Assembly (NCBI RefSeq): GCF_016772415.1
Contig: NZ_JAGSGD010000001.1
Coordinates: 3,559,501-3,623,500 of the forward strand
Reading direction: 5' to 3'
Source of the DNA: Phenylobacterium glaciei
Lineage (GTDB): Bacteria; Pseudomonadota; Alphaproteobacteria; Caulobacterales; Caulobacteraceae
Length of the DNA: 64,000 nucleotides
In this document: positions 9,595 through 61,498 of the stretch, piece after piece
Layout of the letters: each line of letters opens with the position of its first letter
How positions within the stretch are numbered: position 1 is the stretch's first letter
The notes under the pieces: model-generated
The model's input: only the letters and a program-made list of their open reading frames with translations
Database searches by the model: none
What the model was told of the DNA's origin: nothing
Translations under genes and position numbers: made by a program

Positions 9595-9612
9595 AGCCCA
9601 CGACCCAGTTCA

Positions 9613-9643: not shown

Positions 9644-9731
9644 CAGGGTCTGGTCCGGCAGGTCGCCGGCGCGGGACGGGGTCTCGTCAAGCGGGCTTGC
9701 CCCCGCCGCTCCACCCGGCCATATCCACGGG

Positions 9732-36754: not shown

Positions 36755-36755
36755 C

Positions 36756-37286
36756 TCAGGCTCCGTGGTCCGGATAGGTCGCGTCCCGCTCGGAGATCAC
36801 GGTGGGCTGCGCGGGCCAGACGATGCCGAAGGCCGGGTCGTTCCAGCGTACGCCCCGGCCATGACCGGCCTCGAACATCTGGTCGATCTGGTAGAGGACG
36901 TCGGTGTCAGGCTCGAGCGTGATGAAGCCGTGGGCCATGCCGGCCCCGATCAGCAGGGCCCGGCCGTTCTCGGCCGAGAGCTCCGCCCCCGTCCATTGCA
37001 GATAGGTCGGGCTGCTGGGCCGCAGGTCGACAGCCACATCGAAGATCGCGCCGCGCGTCACCCGCACGAGCTTAACCTCGGCCCGTGGCGACGCCTCGTA
37101 GTGCATGCCGCGCAGAGTGCGAGCCGCAGTGTTGCGCGACAGGCTGGTCTGGGCCGGAACGAAGGGATGGCCGGCCGCGGCGAACTCGTCGGGGCAGTGC
37201 AGCCGGGCGAAAGACCCGCGCTCGTCAGTAGACGGATCGAGCTCGACGACCGTTACGCCGTCGATGGCCGTGCCCACGAACCGCAT
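36756..37286 (-). CDS. RmlC-like sugar 3,5-epimerase family protein with altered catalytic Tyr
   Basis: A 176-residue cupin of the dTDP-4-dehydrorhamnose 3,5-epimerase family. His62 in RGMHYE matches the catalytic base, and SAENGRALLIGAGMAHGF is canonical. At the position where RmlC enzymes have YY before the final conserved RGxRW, this protein has MF (137-138), so the usual catalytic tyrosine is missing. It may be a single-position epimerase or have another role. ATG 37286 overlaps the preceding stop by one base (TGATG). Confidence 0.85.
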   Translation of the reverse strand: MRFVGTAIDGVTVVELDPSTDERGSFARLHCPDEFAAAGHPFVPAQTSLSRNTAARTLRGMHYEASPRAEVKLVRVTRGAIFDVAVDLRPSSPTYLQWTGAELSAENGRALLIGAGMAHGFITLEPDTDVLYQIDQMFEAGHGRGVRWNDPAFGIVWPAQPTVISERDATYPDHGA

Positions 37287-44458: not shown

Positions 44459-46672
44459 TTAGGCGACGAAGTCCGTGTTGGCCAGCGTGACCAGGCCCGT
44501 GAGCTTGATCGCGTTGGTCACAGTGTTGTTCGCCGAGCTGTCAGCGAACACGTAGGTGCCCGTGTCAGCGCCGGAGGTCACTTGGATCACCACGATGTCG
44601 CGCGAACCGCCGCCGATCAGCGAGGTCGCATCGGCCAGGGCTTGCGCGTAGCTGGCCGCCGAGGACCCGACCAGGAAGTTCCCGGCCGTACCCGTAACAC
44701 CGAGAGCGAAGCTGTCAGCGCCCGAGGTGTTGAAGTCGGTGATCAGATCCGGCGTCGCCGAAGTCGAGTCACCCGCCGCGAAGACGAAGCGATCCGTACC
44801 GCCGCCGCCGACGAGGGTGTCAGCGCCCGCGCCACCGGTGACGGTTTCGTTGCCGGTGCCGCCCGTGAGGGAGTCGGCGCCGAGGCCGCCATTCAGGATG
44901 CCGCCACCGCTGCTGGCGCTGGCGATGGTGTCGTTGCCATCGTCACCCGAGAGCGTGTTGGCGCCCGTGCCGGACGTCGTGATGGAGTCGTTGCCGAGAC
45001 CACCCGCGATGTTACCCGCACCGTCACCACCGACGATAAGGTCGTTACCGTCGCCACCGGCGATGGTGTCACCGTTCGCGCCACCGACGATCGAGTCATT
45101 GCCGATACCACCATCAAGGATGTTGGAACCCGCGCCACCGTCGAGGGTGTCGTTACCGTCCGAACCCAGCAGGGTGTCGGTGTTGGCGCCGCCCAGGAGG
45201 GTGTCGTCACCGAGACCGCCGTCGGCGTAGTTGGTGCCGGCGCCCGTGGAGAGGGTGTCGTTACCGTCGTTGCCGGAGAGGGTGTCGTAGTCAGCGCCGC
45301 CGAGCACGGAGTCGTTGCCGAGACCGCCCACGCCGACGTTGGTGCCGGCGCCCAGGCCGATCAGGTCGTTGCCGTCACCACCGTCGATGGTGTCGCTTTC
45401 CGTCCCGCCGACCAGGTTGTCGTTACCCAGACCACCGGTGACCGAGTTGGTGCCGTTGCCAGCGTTGACCGCGTCATCGCCGTCGCCGGACGTGACCGTG
45501 TCGTTGTTGGCGCCGCCGAGGAAGGAGTCGTTGCCGGCGCCCAGATCGGTGAGGTCGTTACCGCCACCCACGTTGCTGATCGTGTCGTCGCCAGCGCCGC
45601 CTTGAGCGTTGTCGTCGCCAGCGCCGGAAACGATGGAGTCGTTGCCGAGGTCGCCGAAGATCAGGTCGTTGCCGCCGGCGCCGTCGATGGTGTCGACGCC
45701 TTGGCCACCGAGGATGGTGTCGCTGTCGGCGCCGCCGAGGATCGAGTCATCGCCGAGGTTGCCGTGGGCGTAGTTGGTGCCCGCGCCGGTGGAGATGGTG
45801 TCGCCGCCTTGACCGCCCAGCAGGGTGTCGCCGTTGACGCCGCCGAGGATGGAGTCATCGCCGAGGTTGCCGTTCACGGTGTTGGTGGTGCCGTCGCCGG
45901 TGGAGATGGTGTCGTTGCCATCGAAGCCGGAGATGGTGTCGTTGCCCGTGCCGCCGGTCAGGCTGTCGTTGCCCACGCCGCCGTCGATCGAGTTGGCGCC
46001 CGCGCCGGCGTCGATGGTGTCGTTGCCGTCGCCGCCGACAACCGTGTCAGCGCCGGTGCCGGCCCCGATGGAGTCGTTGCCGAGGTCACCGAACAGAAGG
46101 TTGGCGCCCGAGCCCGCGGCGAAGGTGTCGTCGCCTTGGCCGCCGAGGAGGGTGTCAGCGCCCGTGCCCGACGTGATGCTGTCGTTGCCCAGGTTGCCGT
46201 GCGCGTAGTTGGCGCCGTCGCTGGCGACAATGCTGTCGTCGCCTTGGCCGCCCAGCAGGGTGTCGGCGCCCGTGCCGGCCGAGATCAGGTCGGAACCCTG
46301 GTTGCCCTGGACGTAGTTGGCGCCCCCGGCAGCGTCGAGCGTGTCAGCGCCACCGGCGCCGAACATCGCGTCGCCGGCCGTACCGCCGGCCACCGAGGTG
46401 GCCGAGGCGCTGCCGCCGCCGATGAGCAGCTTGGAGTTGTCGCCGAAGATGCTGAGGAAGTTGTCACCGTTGACGTGGGTGCCGTCCGGATTCAGCGAGA
46501 TCGTGCGGCCGGCGTAGGTCACGTCGATCCGGGCCGGGCTCGCGCCCACCGCCGGAACGTAGGCGACGGAAACGGCAGTCGCCGTTGCGCCGTTGGCGAA
46601 CACGAGGGTGTCAGCGTCGGTGAATGCCGCCTGCTGCGCCGCCGTGATCGTATCGAAGAAATAGTTAGCCAT
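44459..46672 (-). CDS. RTX calcium-binding surface protein (S-layer-like), type I secretion substrate
   Basis: A 737-residue acidic protein with no signal peptide. Residues 1-104 are a non-repetitive head. Residues 105-630 are about 58 glycine- and aspartate-rich nonapeptides (GGxGxDxxx type, such as GNLGNDSIT, GGQGDDTIS) expected to form a calcium beta-roll. The last 107 residues are a non-repetitive tail like a C-terminal type I secretion signal (ending TLANTDFVA). Exported probably by the adjacent ABC/HlyD pair. GGAGAG lies just before the ATG, and a 223-base leader region precedes it. No hydrolase or toxin domain is seen, so a structural role such as S-layer is favoured over haemolysin. 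Confidence 0.88.
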   Translation of the reverse strand: MANYFFDTITAAQQAAFTDADTLVFANGATATAVSVAYVPAVGASPARIDVTYAGRTISLNPDGTHVNGDNFLSIFGDNSKLLIGGGSASATSVAGGTAGDAMFGAGGADTLDAAGGANYVQGNQGSDLISAGTGADTLLGGQGDDSIVASDGANYAHGNLGNDSITSGTGADTLLGGQGDDTFAAGSGANLLFGDLGNDSIGAGTGADTVVGGDGNDTIDAGAGANSIDGGVGNDSLTGGTGNDTISGFDGNDTISTGDGTTNTVNGNLGDDSILGGVNGDTLLGGQGGDTISTGAGTNYAHGNLGDDSILGGADSDTILGGQGVDTIDGAGGNDLIFGDLGNDSIVSGAGDDNAQGGAGDDTISNVGGGNDLTDLGAGNDSFLGGANNDTVTSGDGDDAVNAGNGTNSVTGGLGNDNLVGGTESDTIDGGDGNDLIGLGAGTNVGVGGLGNDSVLGGADYDTLSGNDGNDTLSTGAGTNYADGGLGDDTLLGGANTDTLLGSDGNDTLDGGAGSNILDGGIGNDSIVGGANGDTIAGGDGNDLIVGGDGAGNIAGGLGNDSITTSGTGANTLSGDDGNDTIASASSGGGILNGGLGADSLTGGTGNETVTGGAGADTLVGGGGTDRFVFAAGDSTSATPDLITDFNTSGADSFALGVTGTAGNFLVGSSAASYAQALADATSLIGGGSRDIVVIQVTSGADTGTYVFADSSANNTVTNAIKLTGLVTLANTDFVA
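44783..46306 (-). repeat. 108-bp higher-order repeat array inside the RTX gene
   Basis: The nonapeptides group in fours: GNLGNDSIL-type, GGADxDTLL-type, GGxGxDTIS-type, then xGAGTNYAx-type, where the last lacks the usual Asp and has Asn. This 36-residue unit occurs about 14 times in residues 123-630. Four units carry one extra residue. The pattern shows growth by duplication of 108-base blocks. Confidence 0.8.
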
Positions 46673-46895: not shown

Positions 46896-48263
46896 TCAAT
46901 CTTCTTTCAGAGAGTCTCTGATCGTGTCGGTCAGCGGGCTGACGACGTAGGAGAGAATGGTCCGCGTCCCGGTCACGATGGAGACCGCCGCCGGCATGCC
47001 GGGACTGAGCTTGGCCCCCTTGGGAAGGCTCGCAAGGTCTTTGGGAGCGATGCGGATATCTGCGCGGAAGTAGCCTTCCCCGGTCTTTTGATCGCTCAGC
47101 GAATCGGCTGAGACGGCGATCACCTCGCCCTGCACGGGCGAGACCTTGCGGTAGTTGAAGGCGGTCAGGCGGACCTCGGCTTTCATGCCGACTTTCACGT
47201 CGTCGATGTCGGCCGGCTTGATCTTGGCCGAGATGATCAGGGGCGCATTGGCCGGGACGATATTCATCAGCACTTCGCCGGGCCCGACGACACCGCCGAT
47301 GGTCGACTGTGACAGATCCAGCACATAACCATCGACCGGAGACCGCAGGATCGCATTGTTCAGGGTCTGGCGCGCGGCGGTGAGCCGCGGCGAGACATCC
47401 GACAGGCCCGCCTGCATCTGGCGAAGGCCATCGGCGGCCTGACTGACCCTCTGATCCCGGAGCGAATTGAGTTGCAGACGGGTCTCGCCCTTCTGCTGGC
47501 GCAGGCGAGTGATCTCGGAGTTTAAAGCGCCCCGGCGTCCGGCCAGGTCGGCCAAGCTCCTGTCGTAGCGAAGGATCAGGGTCTTGGGGGCGTAGCCCTT
47601 CTCATAGAGGGTCTGGTAGCCCGACAGTTCTTCCTTGGTCAGGCGGACGCTCTCCTCAAGCGCGTCGAGCTGAGCCTGTACGCCGGAGATCTGTGATTCG
47701 ATCTGGCTCTGGCGCTGGTTCAGCACGTCGGCTTGGCTGTCGAAGAACTGTAGGCGCGTCGAGAACAGCAATTGCTGATCCTGGATCAGGCCCGCGACCC
47801 GAGGATCGGAGATTCGCGTGGTCAGGCTCGCCGGGATGCTCAGCACGCGGGCGCCGCGGGCCTCAGCCTCGAAGCGCGCGCTCTGGGCCATCAGGGCGTC
47901 GGACTGATTCTGGAACACATCGACGGCCGCCTTGGGCTGCACGTCGTCGAGAATGAGCAGCGGCTGACCGGCCGCCACATGCTGGCCTTCGCGCACCGGG
48001 ATGGCCCGCACGGAGCCGCCCTCGCGGTGTCGGATGACCTTGCGATTAGCTTCCACCCGCACCAGGCCCGGCGCCATGATCGCGCTGCGAACAGGCGAGA
48101 CCGCCGCCCAAAGAATCATGGCGACGACGAAGACGCCGACGATTGCGCCGCCGACGATCATCGGCCGGCGCAGCTTGCGTTTCAGCTCGGGATCGAGAGC
48201 CTGCTCCTGACCGCTGAAGGTCGGGGTCACATAGGCCTTGATCGGGGTTACGTCGCGGGTCAT
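46896..48263 (-). CDS. HlyD-family type I secretion adaptor
   Basis: A 455-residue membrane fusion protein. One membrane helix near residues 36-56, a lipoyl/barrel-sandwich hybrid around it (VRAIPVREGQHVAAGQPLL), a long alpha-helical hairpin (about 150-290) and a C-terminal domain with the RTX-family signature PGMPAAVSIVTG. It spans the periplasm between the ABC protein and an outer membrane TolC-type channel, which is not in the window. It overlaps the ABC gene by 4 bases. Confidence 0.9.
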   Translation of the reverse strand: MTRDVTPIKAYVTPTFSGQEQALDPELKRKLRRPMIVGGAIVGVFVVAMILWAAVSPVRSAIMAPGLVRVEANRKVIRHREGGSVRAIPVREGQHVAAGQPLLILDDVQPKAAVDVFQNQSDALMAQSARFEAEARGARVLSIPASLTTRISDPRVAGLIQDQQLLFSTRLQFFDSQADVLNQRQSQIESQISGVQAQLDALEESVRLTKEELSGYQTLYEKGYAPKTLILRYDRSLADLAGRRGALNSEITRLRQQKGETRLQLNSLRDQRVSQAADGLRQMQAGLSDVSPRLTAARQTLNNAILRSPVDGYVLDLSQSTIGGVVGPGEVLMNIVPANAPLIISAKIKPADIDDVKVGMKAEVRLTAFNYRKVSPVQGEVIAVSADSLSDQKTGEGYFRADIRIAPKDLASLPKGAKLSPGMPAAVSIVTGTRTILSYVVSPLTDTIRDSLKED

Positions 48264-49990
48264 CGGGCCGCCCCTATGGCTTGCACGGCGGCCGGCTGAG
48301 TAAAGCGGGCCAGAACCTGATCGCGCGGACCAAACAGCTCCATGCGTCCGTCACGCAGCACCAGGATCTTGTCGGCCGCCCGGAACAGGTTGGGCTTGTG
48401 GGACACCACCGCGATGGTGACGCCGGCGGCCTTGAGGGTGTCGAGCGCCTTCATCAGGGCGTCCTCGCCCTCGGCGTCCAGGCTGGCGTTGGGTTCGTCG
48501 AGCACGATGAACGGCGGCTGCTTCAGAACAGCGCGGGCCAGGCCGATACGCTGGCGCTGACCGGCCGACAGCACGTGGACGCTCTCGCCAAGGTCGGTGT
48601 CGTAGCCTCTGGGCAGGCGGAGGATGAGCTCGTGGACGCCGGCGATCTGGGCCGCCGCCACCACCTCGGCGTCGGTGACATCGGGCTGGAAGCGGGCGAT
48701 GTTGTCGCGGATGGTGCCGGCGAACAGCTCGGTGTCCTGCGGCAGGTAGCCGACGTTGCGGCCGAAGTCCTGGCGGTCCCAGGTGAAAACGTCGGCGCCG
48801 TCGAGGCGGATATTTCCGTTGTTGGGTTTCCAGATGCCCATCATCAGCCGCGAGAGCGTCGACTTGCCGGCCCCCGACGGACCGATGATGCCTAGCATCT
48901 CGCCCGGCTCGATCTTGAAGTTGATGCCCTGCAGGACGAACTTCTCCGCGCCGGCCGGGGCGAAGTTGACACCCTCCACCGACAGCCGGCCCGTGGCGCG
49001 GGGCAGACCGGTGACCGGCTTGGCCGGCTTGTAGTCACCGAAGATCTGCATCAGCCGGTCGAAGGCTCGGGTGCCCTGCAGCATGCCGTCCCAGGAACCT
49101 ACCAGCCGGTCGATGGGCTGGAGGGCGCGGGCCGCCAGGATCATGTTGGCGAACAGCAGGCCCGAGTGAATCTTGCCCTTCACCACGAGATAGGCGCCGA
49201 TAGCGATGATCAGCACCTGGATGACCTGTCGCCACCACTTGCTGAGATTCGATAGGGCGCTAGCCGTGTTGCTGGCGTCGGCGCTGCGGTTCATGGTCGT
49301 CTGCCGGAAGCCGACCCAACGGCCGCCGAGCGTTTCCACCATGCCCATGGCCCGCACAACCTCGCCGTTGCGCAGGGCCGCGTCGGTGAAGGCGTAACTG
49401 CGCAGGGCCGCATCGTTGGCTTCGCCCAGCATAGGCCGGGTGGCCCGGTCCTGGATCAGGGTGATGGCCACCAGAACCACGGCGCCCAGCAGGGTCACTA
49501 TGCCTACCAGGGGGTCAATGAACCACAGGACGACCAGGAAAACCGGCATCCAGGGCAGGTCGAAGACCACGCCGAAAGTGGGGCCTGTCAGCATCTGGCG
49601 GAACGTGTCGAGGTCGCGCAGAGCCTGGGAGCGCAGGGCCGGATTGCCGCGCACCACGCCGTCGAACAGGGCCGAGAACACGTGGCCCGAGACCCGCTGG
49701 TCCATGACCACGCCATAGTTTACCAGCACCTTGGTCCTGTAGTGGTCGATGACACCGGAGACCGCGAAGGTGGCCAGCACGCCGAAGGTGATCACCAGCA
49801 GGGTGGGAATGCTGCCGCTGCTCATCACCCGCCCATAGATCTGGAAGGTGTAGAGCGGCAGCGCCATGTAGAGCAGGTTCGAGACCAGGCTGAACGCCGC
49901 GGCCACAGCCAGGGAGGGATAGCCCTCACGGATCGCCCGCGTCAGCGGATTGTCCGGCTGATCCGCCGACAGCAGCTTGAAAATCTTCAT
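48260..49990 (-). CDS. Type I secretion ABC transporter (PrtD/RsaD-like)
   Basis: A 576-residue permease-ATPase of the PrtD type. Six membrane segments in the first 300 residues, then Walker A GIIGPSGAGKSTLSRL, signature LSAGQRQRIGLA and Walker B FIVLDEPNASLD. No C39 peptidase domain, so the substrate is not a leader-peptide bacteriocin. First gene of the exporter pair, with the RTX gene directly downstream, as in the Caulobacter RsaD/RsaE/RsaA system but in different order. Confidence 0.92.
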   Translation of the reverse strand: MKIFKLLSADQPDNPLTRAIREGYPSLAVAAAFSLVSNLLYMALPLYTFQIYGRVMSSGSIPTLLVITFGVLATFAVSGVIDHYRTKVLVNYGVVMDQRVSGHVFSALFDGVVRGNPALRSQALRDLDTFRQMLTGPTFGVVFDLPWMPVFLVVLWFIDPLVGIVTLLGAVVLVAITLIQDRATRPMLGEANDAALRSYAFTDAALRNGEVVRAMGMVETLGGRWVGFRQTTMNRSADASNTASALSNLSKWWRQVIQVLIIAIGAYLVVKGKIHSGLLFANMILAARALQPIDRLVGSWDGMLQGTRAFDRLMQIFGDYKPAKPVTGLPRATGRLSVEGVNFAPAGAEKFVLQGINFKIEPGEMLGIIGPSGAGKSTLSRLMMGIWKPNNGNIRLDGADVFTWDRQDFGRNVGYLPQDTELFAGTIRDNIARFQPDVTDAEVVAAAQIAGVHELILRLPRGYDTDLGESVHVLSAGQRQRIGLARAVLKQPPFIVLDEPNASLDAEGEDALMKALDTLKAAGVTIAVVSHKPNLFRAADKILVLRDGRMELFGPRDQVLARFTQPAAVQAIGAAR

Positions 49991-50052: not shown

Positions 50053-50226
50053 TGTTACGACAGAAGGCGGCAAGAGCGCGCGACAGATGATCGGCGCCCT
50101 TCGTGATGTCAATGCCACACCCCCGCGGCGAGCGCGCGCAGCGGGATGCTCGCTCGGCCCGGGATGGCGTGGCGGCGAGCTGTGGTAAGGAATGGCGGAC
50201 AGCGGTTTGATAGGAGACGTGCCCGC

Positions 50227-50991
50227 GTGGCTAGGGTGGCGATAATCGGCAGCTGCATAACGCGGGATTTGTGGCCGATCCTGGGCGAAGCGCCCGCCGA
50301 CCTGCTGTACGTTTCGCGCACCAGCCTGCCCAGCCTGTTCGCCCGCCCCCTGACGGACGCCGTGGTCGCCAGCGACCCGCCGCCCGGCCTGGCGCGGCAT
50401 CAGAACAACGCCGTGCGCGCCGATCTGAAGAAGTCGTCCCTGGCCGCCCTGATCGATCACCGTCCTACCCATCTGATCTTCGACTTCATCGACGAACGCT
50501 TTGATCTCCTGGCGGCGGGCGACACCCTGGTCACCCATAGCTGGGAGCTTGAGGCCAGCGGCTACCTCGCTCAACCGGCCTTTTCCTCCGCACGGATCGT
50601 GCCGCGCGCATCCACCCAGTGCGACCAGCTCTGGCGCGAAGCCGCCCTGGAAATGGCGACCTTCCTGCAGCTGACGCCGCTGAGGGACACCCAGATCATT
50701 CTGCATGCGTCTCAGTGGGCGCAACGATACCTGGACCGTGCGGGCCAGCTGCGCGACTTCGACCCCGACGTGATGATCTTCGACGGCAATGTCGGGCGTC
50801 TGGACGACCACAACGCCCTGCTGGCCGGCTATCAGCAGCGATTCGCGCAGATGACGGGCGCCGCCCGGGTCAGCGCGGCCCCGGAGCTGGTGATGGGCGA
50901 CGTCGGCCACCGCTGGGGCCTCAGCCCCTTCCACTATGTCGCCGACTATTACCGCGACATCTGGCGTCAGCTGCGGGCGCTTGGGATCTAG
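50227..50991 (+). CDS. DUF6270 protein
   Basis: A 254-residue protein with the hallmarks IIGSCITRDL at the N terminus and FDFIDERFDL near residue 80, and LSPFHYVADYYRD near the end, as in DUF6270 proteins that occur in polysaccharide loci. The GSC start and the HxxxD-like end resemble SGNH/GDSL esterase-fold proteins, which suggests glycan acylation or deacylation, by inference. GTG 50227 is chosen because AGGAG lies about 10 bases upstream and the fold begins at once. It converges with the next gene, overlapping 4 bases. Confidence 0.75.
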   Translation: MARVAIIGSCITRDLWPILGEAPADLLYVSRTSLPSLFARPLTDAVVASDPPPGLARHQNNAVRADLKKSSLAALIDHRPTHLIFDFIDERFDLLAAGDTLVTHSWELEASGYLAQPAFSSARIVPRASTQCDQLWREAALEMATFLQLTPLRDTQIILHASQWAQRYLDRAGQLRDFDPDVMIFDGNVGRLDDHNALLAGYQQRFAQMTGAARVSAAPELVMGDVGHRWGLSPFHYVADYYRDIWRQLRALGI

Positions 50992-52154
50992 GCGTCGTCG
51001 GAGAGCGAAGCCCAATGCTCCAAGGGCGTCAGCCGGAGATCGGCGGCCTCCCCGACAAGGGGCGCGGCCACGGTCCAGGCGCCGCCCTGCAGGTAGTCGG
51101 TCAGGGGATCGACGTCGGCGCGCAGCTGGTCGCCGCGAAGCGCCATGTAACGGGCGGCGTCGAACCACGGCCCCGGATTGCGGCCCTCGCGGCCGCCCGC
51201 CAGGACGTAGTGGCTCAGCGGCTCGAGGCCGCCAGCCGCGACGTCGGGATATTGGTCGTGATACCAGGCCGGATCGAACAGCCGGTGGGGCTTCAGCCCG
51301 AGCGCCGACCCAACCGTCACATAGTGGACCAGGGCCGGGACCTGCGCCTCCGCGCCCGCTAACCGGGCCCGATAGCGCGCCGCCTGGAACAGGGGATGGG
51401 GGCTGAGATCGCGCCGCCAGCCTTCGCGCAGATAGTGGGCCAGGGGATTTTCGCCGCTTTGGGCCAGTTCCGGGGCCTGGGCGACATAGTGGTCGATGCT
51501 GAACAGCGGATGCGGATCGCGCCCCATCGCCGCGCCGCGGTGCACGAAGTGTTCCAGGGGTGAGAGCCCCGTGGCCGCGAGGTCTTCTGCGTTGCGGGCG
51601 GCGTAGAAGGCGCGATCGAAAAGCGGGTGGGGCGAGCGGCCCTCCGCCCAGCCGCGGGCGATGTAGTGGACCAGGGGGGCCAGACGGCCGCTGGCGACAT
51701 CCGGATAGGTCGCCAGATACCAAGCCTGGTCCAGCAGGGCGGCGGGCTGGGCGGCGGGATCGGCCTCGCGCCGCGCGTAGGCCGCCATGGCCGAAAGGCC
51801 GCCCCCGACCCGGGCCCAGAGACCCGAGCGGGCGATGACCAGGGCGCCGCCCAGCGAGCCCAGACGCACCAGGGCCGCGTCGAGGCGGCGTTTGACGCGG
51901 TTGCGGCGGCGGGCGCGCATCTTGGCTTCAGCCGCCGCGCGATAGGCATTGGCGGCGGCGGCGCGCCCCTCGGCCTCAGCCCGCGCCACGGCGATCAGGG
52001 CCTCGGCCAGCGCCTGGCTCAAACGCCCGCGCGTCAGGGCCTCGGCGGTCTGGGCCCGCTGCACCTCCTCGCGCAGGGCGGCGTGGCGTAGGGCCAGGGT
52101 CTCGACCTTGGCGGCGAGATCGGGGCAGTCCTTCGATGTCACGGGAGCGGTCAC
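50988..52154 (-). CDS. Coiled-coil protein with six 38-residue FD..WY..YPDVA repeats
   Basis: A 388-residue protein with no catalytic domain I can see. Residues 12-80 are an Ala/Arg/Glu-rich coiled coil, then a basic stretch and RSGLW. From 140, six tandem units of about 38 residues follow the pattern LFDxxWYxxxYPDVAxxGxxPLxHYxxxGxxEGRxPHP. The same units occur in the proteins at 54119 and 57177. It may be a scaffold or glycan-binding partner of those glycosyltransferases. Two bases after the previous gene's stop side. Confidence 0.75.
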   Translation of the reverse strand: MTAPVTSKDCPDLAAKVETLALRHAALREEVQRAQTAEALTRGRLSQALAEALIAVARAEAEGRAAAANAYRAAAEAKMRARRRNRVKRRLDAALVRLGSLGGALVIARSGLWARVGGGLSAMAAYARREADPAAQPAALLDQAWYLATYPDVASGRLAPLVHYIARGWAEGRSPHPLFDRAFYAARNAEDLAATGLSPLEHFVHRGAAMGRDPHPLFSIDHYVAQAPELAQSGENPLAHYLREGWRRDLSPHPLFQAARYRARLAGAEAQVPALVHYVTVGSALGLKPHRLFDPAWYHDQYPDVAAGGLEPLSHYVLAGGREGRNPGPWFDAARYMALRGDQLRADVDPLTDYLQGGAWTVAAPLVGEAADLRLTPLEHWASLSDDA

Positions 52155-52155
52155 G

Positions 52156-53019
52156 CTAGAGCGGGGGAACGACGGGCATCTTCAGGTTCGAGAACCCGTT
52201 GTCCATGTGCTCGATCTCCAGGAAACTCGAAGAGCGGCCATAGGCCTTGTAGATCGAGAAGGTCTTGGCGACCCCCAGCGTCGCGGAGCTTTCCAGCGGC
52301 GAGATAAACCCCACGTCACGGTCCATCCAATGGGGCTGGCGCATCCAGTAGTTCAGCTGGTCCCGGGTCAGTGCGAAGTAGCCGGAGTGCGGATTGCGCG
52401 CCCGGCGGAACACAGTCTGACGGCCCAGCGGCGCGCCATAGAGGGTGTCGTCGTCACTGACGAAGGCGTTCATGTTGTCGGCGATTTTCGCATTCAGGTC
52501 GCCGTCGATATAGGTCTTGAGCGTCGGCGCCCGGCGGTTCCACTCGATGCGATTGGGAAACAGCACCCGCTTCTGGCCATAGGTCTGGTTGAACCAGAAG
52601 AGCTTGGAAAAGAAGCTGGGATCGTTGATCCGCAGGTCGTCCTCGCTGAACACAAACAGGTCGTAGCGGTTGGCCCGTTCGGCGATGATCTGCTGGGCGG
52701 AAAAGCCCAGCATGCGCGGGTTCTCCAGCTCCAGCTTGGCGACCTTCACCCCGTACTGGCGGCAGAACTCCGGGGTCAGCAGGTGCTTCTCGCTGGTGGT
52801 CACCGCGATGATGTCGATGTCGTCGTCAGACCCCACCCCCGGCTGGAAGCTCTTGGTCCCCACATCCATGGTTGTGGAGGTCCCGAACTGGCCGCGATAG
52901 GCGCAGATCACCTCCTCGATGGCGCGCTGGCGATCGTCGCGCCGCCGCTCGTTGGTGGAGGAGTGGCGGGAATTGGCCTCGGCCGAGAAGTAATGGGCGA
53001 TGGTGACGAGGATGCGCAT
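52156..53019 (-). CDS. Hypothetical protein, possible GT-A-type glycosyltransferase
   Basis: A 287-residue protein I cannot assign to a family. It begins with a strand and helix (RILVTIAHYFS), has a mid-protein acidic motif FVFSEDDLRI near residue 125 that resembles the DxD region of GT-A enzymes, and an aromatic, charged C-terminal half. No signal peptide or membrane segment. Lies in the minus-strand glycosyltransferase operon, 2 bases before the repeat protein. Confidence 0.65.
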   Translation of the reverse strand: MRILVTIAHYFSAEANSRHSSTNERRRDDRQRAIEEVICAYRGQFGTSTTMDVGTKSFQPGVGSDDDIDIIAVTTSEKHLLTPEFCRQYGVKVAKLELENPRMLGFSAQQIIAERANRYDLFVFSEDDLRINDPSFFSKLFWFNQTYGQKRVLFPNRIEWNRRAPTLKTYIDGDLNAKIADNMNAFVSDDDTLYGAPLGRQTVFRRARNPHSGYFALTRDQLNYWMRQPHWMDRDVGFISPLESSATLGVAKTFSIYKAYGRSSSFLEIEHMDNGFSNLKMPVVPPL

Positions 53020-53096
53020 AGAGGAGCCTGGCGGGAAAGGAGCGGCACGGTAGGCAAGCGGGATGGGCCACGCAAGCTGGCGGGGCGGACGGTGAT

Positions 53097-54122
53097 CTAC
53101 CCGGCAAGGCCTTCATGGGTCAGCCAGCCAAGGTAGCCCGCCGCGTCGAAGGGGTCGGGGAAGGCCGCCTGCAGATCGGGCCGGCCGCGGTAGAGCACCC
53201 GGTGGGGCTTGGCGATCTTCGTCCCGTCGCTGAAGGCCTCGTAGGCCCAGTAGCGTTCGGGGATGATGGGATCGGTGGTCTTGGCCACCTCCTCCTTGTA
53301 CCAGCGCCAGATCTCATAGACCGCGTGGTTGTCGCCGGCATAGCGCTTGGTCATGGCGTCACCGGTGGGGCCGAGCTTGGTGAAGTGCCAGAAGCGCAAG
53401 GGGTGGCCGTTGACGGTGATCGCCCCGTCCTTGCCCACCGCCACCTGGCGCTTGGAGAGGTTCCAGCTGGCGACGTTGTAGCCGGGGTCGCGGACGATCC
53501 TGACCTTGTCGAACAGCGCCGGGACATGGTCGCACCAGCGCTGGTCGACGAACAGGCCGTTGGGGATGTCGTCGTAGCAGAAGCTGAGCAGCCGATCGTT
53601 CCACCACCGGCCGAACCGCGTCCCCTCCCCGCCGGCTCTCACCGCCACGAAGCCCAGGTTGAAGATGCCAGTCTTGGAGGCCGAGAGGTCGTTGTCGAGG
53701 ATCGCTTCCAGGGTGTCGTTGGCGTCCAGCAGGTGCGGCGTGAGCAGGATGTCGTCGACGCCAAGCATCTCTTCCAGCGGCGTCAGGCTGGTGAACAGGG
53801 CGGTGTCGGGGTCAAGATAGACCACCGCGTCGGCGCCGGCGGCCAGCGCCTGGTGCAGGAAGGGACCCTTCACCGCGGTGCAGACCTCCACCACGTCGTG
53901 TTTGAACAGCCAGGCCTGGAAGTCTGGGATGCCGAGGTCCTGGGCGTAGACCACCCGGTCGAACGGCTCGGCGGCCGGATCGAAGCGGAAGCCCGGCGGC
54001 GGCGAATCCGTAATCAATGCCACTCGCTCCCAGTCCGGCTGGTGGACCTTCAGCGTCTGGAACAGCACCCGGGCGCGGTTCAGGTACGAGAAGGTGAAGC
54101 TGGAATAGCAGACGACCTTCAC
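53097..54122 (-). CDS. Glycosyltransferase, GT8-like (GT-A fold)
   Basis: A 341-residue retaining-type transferase. The metal-binding motif is YLDPDTALF near residue 103; FNLGFVAVR and a late RFWHFTKLGP (HxxG-like) fit the GT8-like fold. It begins overlapping the stop of the next upstream gene by 4 bases (ATGA). The C-terminal 20 residues (DPFDAAGYLGWL) faintly resemble the start of the 38-residue repeat found in its neighbours. Confidence 0.8.
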   Translation of the reverse strand: MKVVCYSSFTFSYLNRARVLFQTLKVHQPDWERVALITDSPPPGFRFDPAAEPFDRVVYAQDLGIPDFQAWLFKHDVVEVCTAVKGPFLHQALAAGADAVVYLDPDTALFTSLTPLEEMLGVDDILLTPHLLDANDTLEAILDNDLSASKTGIFNLGFVAVRAGGEGTRFGRWWNDRLLSFCYDDIPNGLFVDQRWCDHVPALFDKVRIVRDPGYNVASWNLSKRQVAVGKDGAITVNGHPLRFWHFTKLGPTGDAMTKRYAGDNHAVYEIWRWYKEEVAKTTDPIIPERYWAYEAFSDGTKIAKPHRVLYRGRPDLQAAFPDPFDAAGYLGWLTHEGLAG

Positions 54123-56011
54123 GAAACAGTCTCCAGGTCGGCGGTCAGGTTGCTGAACTCCATATTATAGAGAGGCGGCTGCCGAAGGCTGCGCGCCAGG
54201 GTCAAAATCTCGCCGCTCTCAAACATTGCGATCAGCGACCGCTCGTCGGGCAGGACCAGCCCGTGGCCCCCCTCCCGCGTGAAGGCGGCGATATTGCCCG
54301 AATCAGGCCCGGTGATGACGGCCGCACCGGCCGCGGCGGCCTCATAGGCGGTGAGCGAGAAGGTCTCCAGGCAGAGCGACCAGATCATCGCGGCGTCGAT
54401 TTCCAGGCGCTTGAGGGCATCGCGCATGGCCATGGGCTTGGCCGCGGTGGCCGAGACTGGGTGGTGGATCACCGGCAGGCCGGGGATGTGGGTCTTGCCC
54501 AGGTGCAGGAAGCTGAAGCGCGGGTCGTTCTCAAACCGCAGCGCCAACTCGACGAAGATCGGCCAGCCCTTGTGCAGGGACGGCGTGCCCGGGAAGGCGA
54601 AGCGGAACGGCCCCTCGCGGGGCGGGGCGGCCTTGGCGCGGGCGGGCGTAAGGCGGGCCAGGGGCGCGACCTTTGCGTCTACCGGATCCATCCAGTCGGC
54701 GCCGCGCCAGGTGTCCATCACCACCTGGGAGGGGGAGACGACGGTCAGGTCCAGATGGCGGAACAGCCGGGTGTGCTCGTCGATGTGCAGCTGGCGGTAG
54801 GGGCCGTAGACGCAGATGCCGCAGGCCGGACTGCCTGGGGGCGGGGCGCCGCAGTTGACGATGTCATTGCGCAACAGGTGGACGCCGGCGCAGAGGCTGG
54901 TGAAGTCGTGGGTCCAGTAGTGGCCGGCATTGGCCCCGGCGATCCGCACGATGTCGATCACCTCGCGGCTGGAATGGCCCAGCATGGAGTGGATGGCGAA
55001 GCTGCGCTTGCCCTCGGTCCAGTCGGCCAAGGCGCTCCGCAGGCCCTCGATCAGCGTCTCGGGGCGGAAGGCGCCCAGCTTGACCCCGTTCCACAACACC
55101 CCCAGCGGCGGGCCGTCGAGGCCGGTGGCGACGATGGGCCAGGGGGACGCGGGATAGACGTGCAGGTGATCGCGGCCCAACTCCCCGAACCGGACAGCCT
55201 CGCGCTGGACGCTGGCCTGCACCCCGCCCACCACGGCGGCGTAGTTGTCGTGGCTGAAGGTGACGTGCAGGTGGCGGCGGCCCGACACCGAATCAGCCAG
55301 CACAAAGTCGGAGGCCTCGTCGAGCGGCACGGCGCGAGCCCAGACCTCGCAGTCGGCCAGCCGTTCCTGCAGCGGCCGCAGACGCGCCAACGCGTCGTGG
55401 CGGAAGCCCAGCCGACGCTTGGCGATGCGGCCCTCGCTGCGACCCTGGGCCAGGAAGTGGACGAAGGGCTGAACGCCGGCTGCGGCCACGTCCGGATTGA
55501 GCTCCAGATAGTCGTGCAGGTGGAAGTCCCGCGACGGATCGCGCCCCTCCTTCCAACCCCGCAGCAGGAAGTGGTCCAGCGGGTCCTGGCCGGAAGCGGC
55601 CACGTCGGAATTGTTGAACAGGTAGAAGGCGGCGTCGAACTCGGTGGCGGCCAGCGCCCGGTCGGCGGCGGTGATCGGCATATCGGCCTTTCCGTCGCGG
55701 CGCAGCTTCTCGGCCACCAGGTAGTCCAGGGCCTGGGCCGAAGCTGTCGCTTCGCGCCCCTCCCGGCGGCCGGTGGTCAGGTAATGGTAGAAGGGGTTGC
55801 CGCCGCCCTCGGCGACGTCGGGATAACGCTCCAGGTAGCCGGTGGTGGAAAACCACGGGGCGGGATCACGGCCTTCGCCCCAGCCGGCGTCGGCATAGTG
55901 GGCCACTAGGTCGCAGTCGGTCTCACTGATGTCGGGATAGATCGCGCGATAGAAGTCGGCGTCCAGGGCCAGACCCAGGACCAGGGGGCTACGATCGAGG
56001 CCGACGGCCAT
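54119..56011 (-). CDS. GT4-like glycosyltransferase with four N-terminal 38-residue repeats
   Basis: A 630-residue protein. Units of the FD..YL..NPDVA..G..P..HFL..G..EGR type lie at about 14-50, 52-88, 125-161 and 162-198; a 36-residue unlike insert separates the second and third. The rest is a GT-B enzyme (FAFPGTPSLHKGWPIF, SLCLETFSLTAYEAAAAGA). ATG 56011 is chosen: GGAGAG lies 8 bases upstream and the longer frame to 56284 overlaps the divergent gene. First gene of the minus-strand operon. Confidence 0.82.
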   Translation of the reverse strand: MAVGLDRSPLVLGLALDADFYRAIYPDISETDCDLVAHYADAGWGEGRDPAPWFSTTGYLERYPDVAEGGGNPFYHYLTTGRREGREATASAQALDYLVAEKLRRDGKADMPITAADRALAATEFDAAFYLFNNSDVAASGQDPLDHFLLRGWKEGRDPSRDFHLHDYLELNPDVAAAGVQPFVHFLAQGRSEGRIAKRRLGFRHDALARLRPLQERLADCEVWARAVPLDEASDFVLADSVSGRRHLHVTFSHDNYAAVVGGVQASVQREAVRFGELGRDHLHVYPASPWPIVATGLDGPPLGVLWNGVKLGAFRPETLIEGLRSALADWTEGKRSFAIHSMLGHSSREVIDIVRIAGANAGHYWTHDFTSLCAGVHLLRNDIVNCGAPPPGSPACGICVYGPYRQLHIDEHTRLFRHLDLTVVSPSQVVMDTWRGADWMDPVDAKVAPLARLTPARAKAAPPREGPFRFAFPGTPSLHKGWPIFVELALRFENDPRFSFLHLGKTHIPGLPVIHHPVSATAAKPMAMRDALKRLEIDAAMIWSLCLETFSLTAYEAAAAGAAVITGPDSGNIAAFTREGGHGLVLPDERSLIAMFESGEILTLARSLRQPPLYNMEFSNLTADLETVS

Positions 56012-56140
56012 GAGACGAACTCTCCACGAGGCTGGAGCTGTGCCGCAGAACGCCGCCTCGATCAACCGCCCCTTGCCCGCGCGCGCTCGCGGCCATAGAG
56101 CGAGGGTCACGCGCGCGTCCAAAGCGCCAGATGGGGCCAG

Positions 56141-57172
56141 ATGGCGAGAACGACAACCCGATCGGCCAAGCCCGCGGCCTACCTCGTGTTGGGGATGCAC
56201 CGGTCCGGCACCTCCGCCGTGACCCAGCTCCTGGCGCTGGCCGGTGCGGAACTGCCGCAGAACGTCATGCCGGGCGACGAGCACAATGCAAGGGGCTATT
56301 TCGAGCCCTGGAAGGTCGCTCTGTTCAACGACGCGCGCCTGCGCGCCGCCGGCAGCGCCTGGGACGACGTCTTCGCCCTGCCCTACGCCCCGCTGCCAAA
56401 GGCCGATGAGGCCGACTGGACCGCTCAGGCGCTGACCCTCTATCGCGAGGAGTTCGGCGAGGCCCGCTTCCCCCTGCTGAAAGACCCCCGGGTCTCAGTG
56501 CTAGGCCCCATGTGGCGCGAGGTCTTGAAGACCGTGGACATGCCGGCCCGCGCGGTGATTCCGGTCCGCTCGCCGCTGGCCGTGGCCGGCTCCCTGGCGC
56601 GACGCGACGGCTTCCCGGTGGAGAAGTCGGTACTGCTGTGGTGCGTCTACATGCTGGCGGCCGAACTCTATTCCCGCGACCTGCCCCGCGCCTTCGTCTC
56701 CTATGACGGTCTGCTGGCCGACTGGCGGGCGGAGGTCGTCCGGATCGAGACGGCCCACGGCGCGCCCCTGCCCCGCATGAGCCCGCACGCCGAGGGCCAG
56801 ATCGATCAGTTCCTGACCGGCGACCTGCGCCACAACGCCGGCGCGGGTGACCTCGCCGCCGTGCCCCTCGTCGGGCCCCTGGCCAAGACCGTCCACGACT
56901 GGTTCGAGGCCGCCGCCGTCGGCCCCGCCCCGCCGCTCGCGCCGCTGGAGGCCGCCGCGGTGCAGATCGCCGAGCTCAAGGCGAAGATGGGGGTCTTCGT
57001 CTCGCCGGTGACCTCGGCCCTGTCGGCCGCCAGCGCCGAGCTGGACGAGGAGCGCCAGCAGCGCCTGCGCGAGCGCCTCTTCACCCAGGAGCTGGAAACC
57101 GAACTAGCCCTGCTGCTGCGTGAACGCGCCGCGATCGACGCCCAAATCGACGCCATGCTGGCCGCGCGCTGA
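56141..57172 (+). CDS. Sulfotransferase-like protein
   Basis: A 343-residue protein with a P-loop-like LVLGMHRSGTSAVTQLL at 15-31, the 5'-phosphosulfate-binding region of sulfotransferases, and IPVRSPLAVAGSLARR as a 3'-phosphate site. A 60-residue helical tail (ELDEERQQRLRERLF...) follows. First gene of the plus-strand operon, 129 bases from the divergent one. Could sulfate a glycan made by its neighbours. A kinase of similar P-loop is an alternative. Confidence 0.78.
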   Translation: MARTTTRSAKPAAYLVLGMHRSGTSAVTQLLALAGAELPQNVMPGDEHNARGYFEPWKVALFNDARLRAAGSAWDDVFALPYAPLPKADEADWTAQALTLYREEFGEARFPLLKDPRVSVLGPMWREVLKTVDMPARAVIPVRSPLAVAGSLARRDGFPVEKSVLLWCVYMLAAELYSRDLPRAFVSYDGLLADWRAEVVRIETAHGAPLPRMSPHAEGQIDQFLTGDLRHNAGAGDLAAVPLVGPLAKTVHDWFEAAAVGPAPPLAPLEAAAVQIAELKAKMGVFVSPVTSALSAASAELDEERQQRLRERLFTQELETELALLLRERAAIDAQIDAMLAAR

Positions 57173-57176
57173 TTCT

Positions 57177-60100
57177 GTGACCAAGCCCCCCATCAAGAAG
57201 ACCGAGAATGTCGCCGCCGAGCTTCTGGCCCAGCGCCGCCGCCTGCACGCCGTCCACGCCGGCCTGGCCGAAGACCGCTGGGCCCGCTTCCGGTCCGCCG
57301 CCGCCAAGCGCCAGTGGGACCGCGAACGCGGCCGCCTGGAGCAGCGGTTCGACCTGGTCCTGGCGCGGGGCAAATGGCCGGGCCGCGCAACCCTCCTATT
57401 GCGCTCGGGCCTGTGGACGTTCGGTCTCGACCAGGGTGTCGGCCGCGAGGGCGGCGAGACGCGCGGTCTGATCGACTATGTCCGCGCCGGCCCCGATTCC
57501 AACGCCCACCCAAAGGCCCTGTTCGACCAGACCTGGTACATCGAGAAGAACCCCGACCTGGTGGGCACCGCCTGGGCGCCGCTCGCCCACTACCTGGTGG
57601 CGGGCGACAAGGAGGGCCGCGACCCTCACCCACTGTTTGACCTGGCCGACTATCGCTCGCGTCACGCGGTGAAGGTGGCCGCCAGCGGCCTGAGCGCCCT
57701 GCAGCATTTCGTGTTCACGGGCGCCCGGGAGGGCTTCAACCCCCACCCACTGTTCGACGTGCGCCACTATGTCGGCCAGTCCGAGGAGCTGGCCAGGTCG
57801 GGCGAGAACCCCCTGCTGCACTATCTGCGGCAGGGCTGGAAGCTGGGATACGAGCCCCACCCGCTGTTCTCCGGCGCCTGGTATCTGCGACAGAATCCCG
57901 ACGTCGCCGAGCGCGGCCTCCCGCCCCTGCTGCACTACGTCACCAGTGGCGCGGGCGAAGGCCGCCCGCCGCATCCGCTGTTTGACTCAGGCTGGTACGC
58001 CGACCGCTACCGCGACGCCACGGCCCTGGGCGCGAGCCCTCTGGCCGACTTCCTGACCCACGGCCTGGCGGGCCGCCGCAACCCCAGCGCCCATTTCGAT
58101 TCCGGCTTTTATCTGGAACAGAACCCCGACGCGCCGGACGACGTTCACCCCATCCTGCACTACTTGGCCGACGGTGCCTTCGAGGGCGCATCCCCCGCGC
58201 CGGACTTCGATGAGCTGGCCTATCTCGCCGCCCATCCAGACGCCGCCGAGCAGCCGATCTCGGCCCTCGAGCACTGGGCGCTCAGCCGTGCGCCCAAGCC
58301 AGAACCCGGCGCGGGTCATCTGCGCGCCGGAGGCTCCGACACCGGCCTCTTTGAGCAGTTGCGCGCCGGCCGCACCAAGGACGCCGGTCTCTATGACGTC
58401 CAAGCCTATCGCGACCTCGCGGGCGAGCGCCGCCGTATGGACAACGCCCGCATCGCCAAGGTGAAGGTCAAGCCGCTGAAGCTGATCAAGCTGGCGGAGA
58501 AGGACCTTGAGGAAGCTGCCGCCACGCTCGCCTTTGCAGCCCCCGCCATGCCGCGGGCCTCCATCGTGATCCCGGCCTACAACAATCTGAAGTTCACCCT
58601 GGAATGCCTGGCCTCGCTGCAGGCCGCCGGGGGCGTTGAGGACGCCGAAATCATCGTCATCGACGACGCCTCGGCCGATGCGACCTCCGCCGTCCTGGCC
58701 ACGGTTCCTGGCCTGACCTTGCTGACCAACCCCCAGAACCTCGGCTTCATCCGTACCTGCAACCGGGCGGCGGAAGCCGCCAAGGGCGAGTTCGTCATCT
58801 TCCTGAACAACGACGTCCAGGTCCGCCCGGGCTGGCTGGCGGCCCTGCTTTCGCCCTTCGATGAGGAAACCGGTGTCGGGGCCACGGCGCCCAAGATGCT
58901 GTTCCCCGACGGCCGCTTGCAGGAGGCCGGCGCCCGGATCGGCGTCGACGGGACCTCCGAGATGATCGGCCTGTTCGACGATCCGTCCTTGCCCCGCTGG
59001 AACGTGCGGCGCGAGGTGGACTACGCCTCGGGCGCCTGCCTGGCGTTGCGCCGCGAGGTGTTCGCCGACCTGGGCGGTTTCGACATCGTCTTCGCGCCGG
59101 CCTATTGCGAAGACGCCGATCTCTGCTTCCGGCTGCGCGAGCGCGGCCTGCGGATCGTCTACGAGCCCACCTCCGAGATCGTCCACCACCTGTCGGTCAC
59201 CGCCAACTCCATCGACGTCGGCTACAAGCACCGGCTGGCGACCAGGAACCAGCAGGCCTTCGTACAGCGCTGGGGCGAGCGGCTGGAGGGACTGAACACC
59301 GTCCGCACCATCGCCTTCCACCTGCCGCAGTTTCACACCATCCCCGAGAATGACCGCTGGTGGGGCGCGGGCTTCACCGAGTGGACCAATGTCACCCGGG
59401 CCCTGCCCAACTATCGCGGCCACTACCAGCCGCACCTGCCCGCCGACCTGGGCTTCTACGACCTGTCGGACCCGGCCGCCCTGAAGCGCCAGGGGGAGCT
59501 GGCCGCCCGGTACGGGATCGGCGGCTTCTGCCACTATTTCTACTGGTTCTCCGGCGGCCGCCGGGTGCTGGAAAAACCGCTGGAGCACCTGCTGACCGGG
59601 GCGGCGGGCGACTTCCCCTTCTGCCTCTGCTGGGCCAACGAGAACTGGACCCGCACCTGGGACGGTCAGTCCAACGACGTGCTGCTGGCCCAGACCTATG
59701 AGGAGGGCGACGCCGAGGCCCTGATGGCCGAGATGGGGCCGTTCCTGAAACGCCCCAACTACATTCGGGTGAACGGCAAGCCGCTGGTGCTGCTGTACCG
59801 GCCGGGGCTCTTACCGGACGCTAAGCTGTGGGCGGCGCATTGGCGCGACTGGTGCGCGAAGAATGGCGTGGGCGATATCTACCTGGCCTATGTCGAGGGC
59901 TTCGAGAAGGCGGGCGGGGCGACCGACCCCACCACCCTGGGCTTCGACGCCAGCGTCGAGTTCCCGCCGGCCGGCGCCCACGCCCTGATCCATCCGCCCG
60001 GCCCGCTCTACAACGCCCGCTTCGAGGGCAAGGTCAGCGACTACCGCCAGATCGTGCGTCGCTACATGGCCGAGCCGACCCCGCCCCACACCCGCTTCCG

Positions 60101-60371
60101 TGGGGCCATGCCCGGCTGGGACAACACCGCGCGCCGGCAGGACAACAACCTCTCGCACCACTACGCGACACCGGGCGCCTTCCAGGCCTGGCTGGAGGCG
60201 ATGTTCGCCGAGACCCGCCGGCAGAACTTCGGCGACGAGCGCCTGGTGTTCATCAACGCCTGGAATGAGTGGGCCGAGGGCGCGCACCTGGAGCCCGACC
60301 AGCGCTTCGGCCACGGCTGGCTGGAGGCGGTGAAGAACGCCGCCGACGCCGACTTGCTGGACAAGCCATGA
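57177..60371 (+). CDS. Repeat array + GT2 + WbsX/GH99-like three-part glycan enzyme
   Basis: A 1064-residue multidomain protein. After a basic helical head (1-110) come seven tandem 38-residue repeats (115 to about 380), then a GT2 domain from 461 (SIVIPAYNNLKFTLE, DDASADATS, EFVIFLNNDVQVRPGW), then a WbsX/GH99-like domain from about 711 (FHLPQFHTIPENDRWWG, TEWTNVTRA, AWNEWAEG). It begins at GTG 57177, 4 bases after the sulfotransferase stop, with poor ribosome-binding sequence, so it may be translationally coupled. Ends overlapping the next start by 4 bases. Confidence 0.85.
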   Translation: MTKPPIKKTENVAAELLAQRRRLHAVHAGLAEDRWARFRSAAAKRQWDRERGRLEQRFDLVLARGKWPGRATLLLRSGLWTFGLDQGVGREGGETRGLIDYVRAGPDSNAHPKALFDQTWYIEKNPDLVGTAWAPLAHYLVAGDKEGRDPHPLFDLADYRSRHAVKVAASGLSALQHFVFTGAREGFNPHPLFDVRHYVGQSEELARSGENPLLHYLRQGWKLGYEPHPLFSGAWYLRQNPDVAERGLPPLLHYVTSGAGEGRPPHPLFDSGWYADRYRDATALGASPLADFLTHGLAGRRNPSAHFDSGFYLEQNPDAPDDVHPILHYLADGAFEGASPAPDFDELAYLAAHPDAAEQPISALEHWALSRAPKPEPGAGHLRAGGSDTGLFEQLRAGRTKDAGLYDVQAYRDLAGERRRMDNARIAKVKVKPLKLIKLAEKDLEEAAATLAFAAPAMPRASIVIPAYNNLKFTLECLASLQAAGGVEDAEIIVIDDASADATSAVLATVPGLTLLTNPQNLGFIRTCNRAAEAAKGEFVIFLNNDVQVRPGWLAALLSPFDEETGVGATAPKMLFPDGRLQEAGARIGVDGTSEMIGLFDDPSLPRWNVRREVDYASGACLALRREVFADLGGFDIVFAPAYCEDADLCFRLRERGLRIVYEPTSEIVHHLSVTANSIDVGYKHRLATRNQQAFVQRWGERLEGLNTVRTIAFHLPQFHTIPENDRWWGAGFTEWTNVTRALPNYRGHYQPHLPADLGFYDLSDPAALKRQGELAARYGIGGFCHYFYWFSGGRRVLEKPLEHLLTGAAGDFPFCLCWANENWTRTWDGQSNDVLLAQTYEEGDAEALMAEMGPFLKRPNYIRVNGKPLVLLYRPGLLPDAKLWAAHWRDWCAKNGVGDIYLAYVEGFEKAGGATDPTTLGFDASVEFPPAGAHALIHPPGPLYNARFEGKVSDYRQIVRRYMAEPTPPHTRFRGAMPGWDNTARRQDNNLSHHYATPGAFQAWLEAMFAETRRQNFGDERLVFINAWNEWAEGAHLEPDQRFGHGWLEAVKNAADADLLDKP

Positions 60372-61498
60372 GCGACGACCTGGTCCTGGTGGGCCACCCC
60401 TTCTCGGCCATCGGCATGGCCGAACACGTCCGCTCGGCCTGGCGAGCCTTCAAGGCGGCCGGGATAACCACGGGCCTGATCGACATCTACGGCCTGGACC
60501 GCAACAAGGACCCAGACTTCGAGCGCGACTTCGGTCCCCACGTCGTCCCGAAACTCAGCCCCAAGACCAACCTCTTCTGCATCAACGCCAATGAGGTGGA
60601 GCAGGCGATGGGGGTGCTGGAGGCCACCGGCTCCAAGGCCGCTTTCGAGAGCGCCCACAACATCATCTATCCGGCCTGGGAGCTGTCGAAGTACCCCGAG
60701 CCCTGGGCCCGCATCCTGGAGCGTTTCGACGAGGTCTGGGCGCCGTCCGACTTCATCGCCCAGGCCATCGCGCCTGCCGTCAGCAAGCCGGTGATCCACA
60801 TGCCCCTGGCGGTGGAACTGACCCTGTCGAGCTTCCTGGGACGGCGCGCCTTCGGCATTCCCGAGCATGCCTTCGTGGTGCTGTTCTCCTTCGATTTCTC
60901 GTCCTTTTCGGAGCGCAAGAACCCGCTGGCCATGCTGGACGCCTTCGAGCGGCTCTGCGCGCTGCGCCCTACCGCGCCCCTGCACGCCATCGTCAAGTAC
61001 AAGGGCGGCGACGACAGGAATCCGGCCCGCAAGGCCTTGGAAGCCAGGCTCGCGGCCCTCGGCGGCCGGGCCCAGGGGATCACCCGCGAGCTCAGCGACA
61101 ACGAGAACAAGAACCTGATCCGCTGCGCCGACGCCTTTGTCTCGCTGCACCGCTCGGAAGGATTCGGGCGCGGCCCGGCGGAGGCCATGACGCTCGGCCG
61201 CGTCGCCATCGCCACGAACTATTCGGGCAATCTCGACTTCATGACACCGGAGACCAGCCTGCTGGTGGACTGCGAGCTCGTGCCGGTGCCGGAGGACGCC
61301 TACCTGTTCCCGCAGGGCCAGGTCTGGGCCGACGCCAGCGTCGAGCACGCCGTTGAGCTGATGGCCCGCATGCTGGACGACCCGGCCGAGGCCCGCGCCC
61401 TGGGCCGCCGGGCCAGCCGCCACATCCGCACCCACTTCAGCGCCCGCGCGGTGGGCCTGCGCTACACCGCGCGCCTGGACGACTTGGCTAAGGCTTAG
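60368..61498 (+). CDS. GT4-like glycosyltransferase
   Basis: A 376-residue GT-B enzyme starting at ATG 60368 within the stop of the three-part enzyme. ERKNPLAMLDAFERL and the donor site RSEGFGRGPAEAMTLGRVAIAT are recognisable. Likely a polymer- or core-building transferase. It converges with the lipoprotein gene, overlapping 11 bases. Confidence 0.85.
   Translation: MSDDLVLVGHPFSAIGMAEHVRSAWRAFKAAGITTGLIDIYGLDRNKDPDFERDFGPHVVPKLSPKTNLFCINANEVEQAMGVLEATGSKAAFESAHNIIYPAWELSKYPEPWARILERFDEVWAPSDFIAQAIAPAVSKPVIHMPLAVELTLSSFLGRRAFGIPEHAFVVLFSFDFSSFSERKNPLAMLDAFERLCALRPTAPLHAIVKYKGGDDRNPARKALEARLAALGGRAQGITRELSDNENKNLIRCADAFVSLHRSEGFGRGPAEAMTLGRVAIATNYSGNLDFMTPETSLLVDCELVPVPEDAYLFPQGQVWADASVEHAVELMARMLDDPAEARALGRRASRHIRTHFSARAVGLRYTARLDDLAKA

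Follow-up and report, generated by a model that had tools for sequence, protein, structure and literature searches.

A 38-residue tandem repeat of predicted helical fold shared by bacterial glycan enzymes and secreted proteins

In the glycan locus of Phenylobacterium glaciei, three proteins, here termed A, B and C, share a 38-residue tandem repeat with the consensus LFDxxxYxxxxPDxAxxGxxPLxHYLxxGxxEGRxPxP, which is best explained, on the basis of structure prediction, as a distinct helical repeat domain. We tentatively favour a reading, drawn by analogy with known O-antigen systems and rated slightly short of an even chance, in which the array is a protein-docking module that would bring together glycan-polymerising enzymes, with A as their scaffold. 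If so, a repeat found on capsule enzymes of bacteria as distant as E. coli and Acidobacteria would be a new, general component of ABC-transporter-dependent polysaccharide assembly, a process in which the recruitment of polymerase and terminator has been explained for no more than a few O-antigen systems.

Profile searches of the window (the whole 64,000-nucleotide stretch of DNA analysed) located six units in A, four in B and seven in C, exactly as counted in the initial annotation. The 17-unit profile gave whole-protein E-values of 6e-95, 6e-67 and 2e-102 for A, B and C, respectively, and a seed devoid of any B unit still recovered all four B units at E-values from 1.5e-9 to 8e-15. Autocorrelation peaked at lag 38 in A (0.195), B (0.210) and C (0.223), and all three peaks exceed the maxima reached in 1000 shuffles of each array (0.170, 0.169 and 0.148, respectively). 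In a shuffle control of the profile search, with a database size of 3, nine of 3000 shuffled proteins scored at E < 1e-3, which is near chance expectation and far below the real scores. The profile and the autocorrelation thus substantiate the earlier claim of a single module common to the three proteins. Whole-genome searches yielded 17 unit matches, all in the open reading frames (ORFs) of A, B and C, and the profile found no 38-residue unit in the other ORFs of the window, including that of the RTX protein. The degenerate unit is the last one in A, and likewise in C.

Protein A (388 aa; 50988..52154, minus strand) consists of an N-terminal coiled coil, a linker and the six-unit array. AlphaFold2 with DSSP assignment predicted a 73-residue helix at residues 11–83 (51906..52124, minus strand) with pLDDT values mostly of 86–95, and a sequence proxy places the coiled coil at residues 12–101. 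The array covers residues 140–366 (51057..51737, minus strand), with units assigned by hmmsearch at residues 140, 178, 217, 255, 292 and 330. No Pfam or NCBIfam profile matched any part of A, and the AlphaFold2 model displays only helix, linker and array; the view of A as a catalytic body is therefore not borne out. Protein C (1064 aa; 57177..60371, plus strand) comprises a coiled-coil-like N-terminus (residues 6–64 by the proxy), a seven-unit array (57519..58313, plus strand; hmmsearch units at residues 115, 153, 192, 230, 268, 306 and 343), a GT2 domain (Pfam E-value 1e-25) and a WbsX domain (PF14307; E-value 6e-126; 421 bits, the cut-off being 25.1). The identity order of units between the arrays of A and C is the best of 720 permutations, with a mean identity of 0.47 in register versus 0.39 off register; when each array is compared across genomes, the units of A and of C reach 0.50–0.79 in register and 0.26–0.49 off register. 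The homology of the two proteins extends to the region before the array (E-value 5e-9). A and C are, judging from their sequences, colinear paralogues, and therefore A is most simply a copy of the front end of C without the catalytic domains. Accordingly, the previous description of the array-bearing proteins as otherwise unrelated catalytic bodies has to be given up for the A–C pair.

Protein B (54119..56011, minus strand) carries its four units at the N-terminus (55421..55966, minus strand; hmmsearch units at residues 107, 144, 216 and 253). Its match to Pfam GT4 is weak (E-value 0.006, best score of 17.3 bits, under the cut-off of 27), thus B is termed GT4-like only. The listed ORF runs to 56284, and its first 91 residues are probably untranslated, with the start at 56011, because this upper part overlaps a gene on the opposite strand and because the open frame of several orthologues reaches only about 35 residues above unit 1. 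The unit identity matrix resolves the B array into two repeated pairs, with unit 2 resembling unit 4 and unit 1 resembling unit 3.

Domain calls in this work are profile matches, and structures are predictions. With a 46-row alignment, AlphaFold2 modelled the A array alone with a mean pLDDT of 95.6 and a pTM of 0.90, and the full protein A with a mean pLDDT of 87.8 and a pTM of 0.83. Each predicted unit contains three helices, the middle one short, and neighbouring units are linked by a short beta bridge. For this confidently predicted helical repeat, Foldseek and VIA searches of the PDB with the full A model and with the array alone gave no significant match, an absence that neither equates to a new fold nor excludes a TPR-type superhelix; the best Foldseek match of the array is a designed PPR protein at a non-significant E-value of 3.2. 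The units of TPR, Sel1-like and PPR repeats comprise 34–44 residues. The present array resembles them in its short tandem helical units of comparable length, but differs in having no significant Pfam or Foldseek match to them: TPR and Sel1 profiles of Pfam, searched at E-values up to 10, gave nothing significant on the arrays, the best being TPR at 0.84 on a consensus. Sequence searches of Pfam, NCBIfam and the PDB with the repeat returned no significant match either, and no relevant paper was found by motif strings in the literature outside most subscription journals. Within these resources, the module is indeed without an established description, as had been suspected, and neither a characterised domain nor a solved relative was found.

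The repeat is widely distributed. In a sample of 385 genomes of the class, at least 32 have units, and so do at least 55 of 398 drawn from the whole phylum, or at least 14% of the sampled Pseudomonadota; no array was found in the eight genomes searched from other genera of the family. A scan of species genomes, queried with a four-row alignment, confirmed 257 stretches; the best 78 loci, picked by score and hence biased in any proportions taken from them, belong to several classes of Pseudomonadota, Desulfobacterota-type bacteria, Acidobacteria, Verrucomicrobia, Cyanobacteria, Planctomycetes and others. A system particular to the present locus, as initially envisaged, is at odds with this occurrence on many phyla and on both enzymes and secreted proteins, two classes assigned partly by inspection. 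The matches are not spread evenly over genomes but concentrate on glycan enzymes, in keeping with the earlier proposal of a tie to glycan synthesis. Arrays at the N-terminus or internal to the chain go with glycan enzymes, including surface-polysaccharide glycosyltransferases and methyltransferases; in a set of 44 proteins whose arrays are mostly N-terminal or internal, matches are to GT2 in 27, to a GT4 family in 16, to WbsX in five and to Methyltransf_24 in four. C-terminal arrays are mostly borne by secreted RTX, M10, subtilase, GDPD, Ig-like and cadherin-like proteins, with a minority of methyltransferases. In Pseudoroseomonas aestuarii, a single genome encodes many array-bearing ORFs (41 profile matches), several of which have C-terminal six-unit arrays.

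The array enzymes are enriched in coiled coils. Counted by a composition proxy, a long coiled-coil-like segment occurs in 42 of 74 array-enzyme ORFs versus 53 of 481 other ORFs of at least 400 aa in the same loci (Fisher p 2e-17, the loci being not fully independent), and it lies N-terminal of the array in 33 of those 42; the secreted array proteins have such a segment in 1 of 21 cases. Around 66 array-enzyme loci elsewhere, raw neighbour counts over a range of about 8 kb, taken without a random-locus baseline, gave a sulfotransferase homologue at 17, KpsT at nine, KpsM at six and type I secretion genes at three, one of these three being the syntenic counterpart of the present locus in a relative. 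A tie to the RTX layer, put forward in the initial annotation, is ruled out as a general rule by this count of three in 66.

In the same block as the trio, a CDP-sugar cassette (35810..40355, minus strand; TIGR02623, TIGR02622 and Pfam) contains a glucose-1-phosphate cytidylyltransferase, a CDP-glucose 4,6-dehydratase, a C-methyltransferase and an epimerase. Further along the window are encoded a 737-aa RTX protein with 16 HemolysinCabind stretches and no 38-residue units (44459..46672, minus strand), an HlyD-type adaptor (46896..48263, minus strand; TIGR01843) and a PrtD-type ATPase (48260..49990, minus strand; TIGR01842), both over the cut-off, and a DUF6270 gene (50146..50991, plus strand; Pfam E-value 3e-42). 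Between A and B lie an unassigned gene that is present in the closest relative and missing in most others examined (52156..53019, minus strand) and a glycosyltransferase-like gene with a DxD-like motif and no Pfam match, syntenic in the genus (53097..54122, minus strand). C is flanked upstream by a sulfotransferase-like gene (56141..57172, plus strand; weak Pfam Sulfotransfer_3 match, E-value 0.009) and downstream by a GT4 glycosyltransferase (60269..61498, plus strand; Pfam Glycos_transf_1 E-value 3e-12), the true start of which is probably inside the listed ORF. The glycan locus extends beyond the window end: an ABC2_membrane protein and a KpsT-like ATPase lie about 5 kb past it (window-equivalent positions about 68,500–70,350), followed by a homologue of the gene at 53097, and homologous stretches are present in the three genus members checked. 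The order RTX, HlyD, PrtD, DUF6270, A, glycosyltransferase-like, B, sulfotransferase-like and C is largely kept in the genus members examined and one Caulobacteraceae MAG, with RTX scored where the stretch reaches it; some genomes deviate by having lost genes or by carrying a second B. Among these relatives the RTX protein diverges more (40–58% identity) than its exporter ATPase (61–88%). In Caulobacter, the gene of the S-layer RTX protein RsaA adjoins those for its type I export and for a surface polysaccharide, and the present locus has the same layout.

The docking model is built on the parallel with WbdD, in which a coiled-coil ruler stands between the terminator and the polymerase recruitment site (PMC11231755). 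The array lies at the spot where such a recruitment site would fall. As in the WbdD/WbdA system of ABC-transporter-dependent O-antigens, a coiled coil would part an end domain from the polymerase recruitment point, and array-bearing methyltransferase–coiled coil proteins adjoin KpsMT-type exporters, as exemplified by a Kiloniellales MAG with the order methyltransferase, coiled coil and array beside KpsM/KpsT; in a Desulfobacterales MAG, methyltransferase, array and GT2 are joined in a single chain. At the present locus, A has a predicted extended coiled coil and an ABC-2 polysaccharide exporter lies nearby, but A differs from WbdD in having no terminator domain, neither methyltransferase nor kinase, by Pfam, NCBIfam or AlphaFold2. 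We thus favour docking because the position of the array and the adjacent partner enzymes with arrays of their own parallel WbdD. In this putative model, an array placed between a coiled coil and a glycosyltransferase, or heading a separate glycosyltransferase, would gather the chain-building enzymes. Docking would involve C (coiled coil–array–GT2–WbsX) and B (array–GT4) as polymerising or decorating enzymes, and A (coiled coil–array), the catalysis-free duplicate of the front end of C, as a WbdD-like scaffold without a terminator. The arrays may bind one another or, within the enzyme complex, a partner common to them, and the glycan would exit via the KpsMT-like exporter beside the locus. A scaffold with fixed contacts would be expected to keep each unit conserved in register across genomes, as is observed here. 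Against the docking model, secreted array proteins should stay outside a cytoplasmic complex, unless the arrays pair extracellularly too.

This secreted class, together with the loci in which both classes meet, places a second reading close behind, namely that the array is a glycan-binding module, which would hold the growing chain on the enzymes and anchor secreted RTX proteins to the polysaccharide of their own cell. We consider it possible, with a somewhat lower probability than docking. It covers enzyme and secreted classes together, whose units fit one profile (Y7 in 100% of both, H24 in 95% of both, and G29 in 98% and 100%, respectively). In Halomonas ventosae and Roseibium limicola, a single locus combines type I secretion genes with array-bearing proteins of both kinds, RTX or M10 proteins and glycan enzymes, and in Azospirillum ramasamyi an array-bearing M10/RTX protein adjoins two glycosyltransferases as well as HlyD/TolC-family genes. 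Moreover, the Caulobacter S-layer protein binds the LPS O-antigen (PMC6978808). However, surface polysaccharides are highly variable and the unit profile is nearly constant, the RTX protein of the window has no array, and a coiled coil directly ahead of the array suits docking better. Foldseek found no carbohydrate-binding module fold matching the array, which counts as an absence only. The binding partner of a unit common to secreted RTX proteins and enzymes would show whether surface proteins and sugars are matched via one module. An unlikely extension is that the array provides a homotypic assembly code for two compartments, which would gather enzymes inside the cell and type I-secreted proteins on their polysaccharide outside; a surface protein and the sugar coat of its own cell would then be connected through one module.

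A purely mechanical role is improbable. As a passive spacer or stalk, the array would fix the distance between domains, as its variable length (1 to 23 units across proteins) and its frequent location between domains may suggest. Each unit is nevertheless conserved in register, and the arrays of A, B, the E. coli proteins and the secreted proteins are at or near a terminus. In the profile of 597 units from elsewhere, Y7, H24, G29, F2 and P38 are near-invariant, with secreted and enzyme units agreeing at these sites; the strictness of Y7, H24, G29 and P38 again speaks against a spacer. Least probable is an RTX-specific trio, in which the arrays would recruit the RTX protein for glycosylation ahead of type I export: in its favour are the synteny with the RTX, HlyD and PrtD genes across the genus members checked and the presence, within the same conserved block, of an OGT-like GT41 protein (33531–35813, plus strand) that has TPR repeats and may act in protein O-glycosylation, but array enzymes elsewhere mostly have no type I secretion neighbours and a KpsMT-like exporter adjoins the locus.

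In the group 3 capsule loci of E. coli, the array system is present in a short form that is amenable to genetics. They encode a KpsD-type export protein, KpsM, KpsT and KpsE beside gspM/yghD, and the probe used matched 50 of 5426 genomes. A methyltransferase with coiled-coil segments bears two C-terminal units, and the next gene encodes either a one-unit GT2 protein or a two-unit GH99-like (WbsX-type) protein; the partner therefore keeps an array despite its different catalytic body. The E. coli loci thus resemble the window in having the array on one protein and on an adjacent GT2 or WbsX-type protein, but differ in carrying one or two units per protein instead of four to seven; the stretches examined there contain neither RTX nor type I secretion genes. 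Between the two types, methyltransferase identity in 40-residue blocks is 80–100% as far as about residue 760, an internal deletion excepted, and drops to 47–60% past this point. For group 3 capsules, a study has reported that most substitutions between two clusters lie in the final 263 bp of a common methyltransferase gene (PMC10433991), which we infer to be of the array-bearing type described here; as a reservation against docking, the divergence near the array end could also reflect an ordinary recombination gradient at the gene end (PMC10433991). In a K96 transposon screen nearly all kps-locus genes were needed, the array protein being unnamed there (PMC13410964).

Viral sequences were also surveyed. 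Phage records gave no match to the repeat, and a scan of viral contigs with the E. coli array, the last few residues of which are approximate, gave no relative. The best viral fold matches of the array in BFVD, a lead only at E-values of 1e-3 or weaker, are giant-virus glycosyltransferases and an FkbM methyltransferase, from Fadolivirus, Hyperionvirus and Indivirus. An RgpF/glycerophosphotransferase protein bearing four units is encoded at positions 7884–10829 of an IMG/VR contig, where its neighbours are phage-like.
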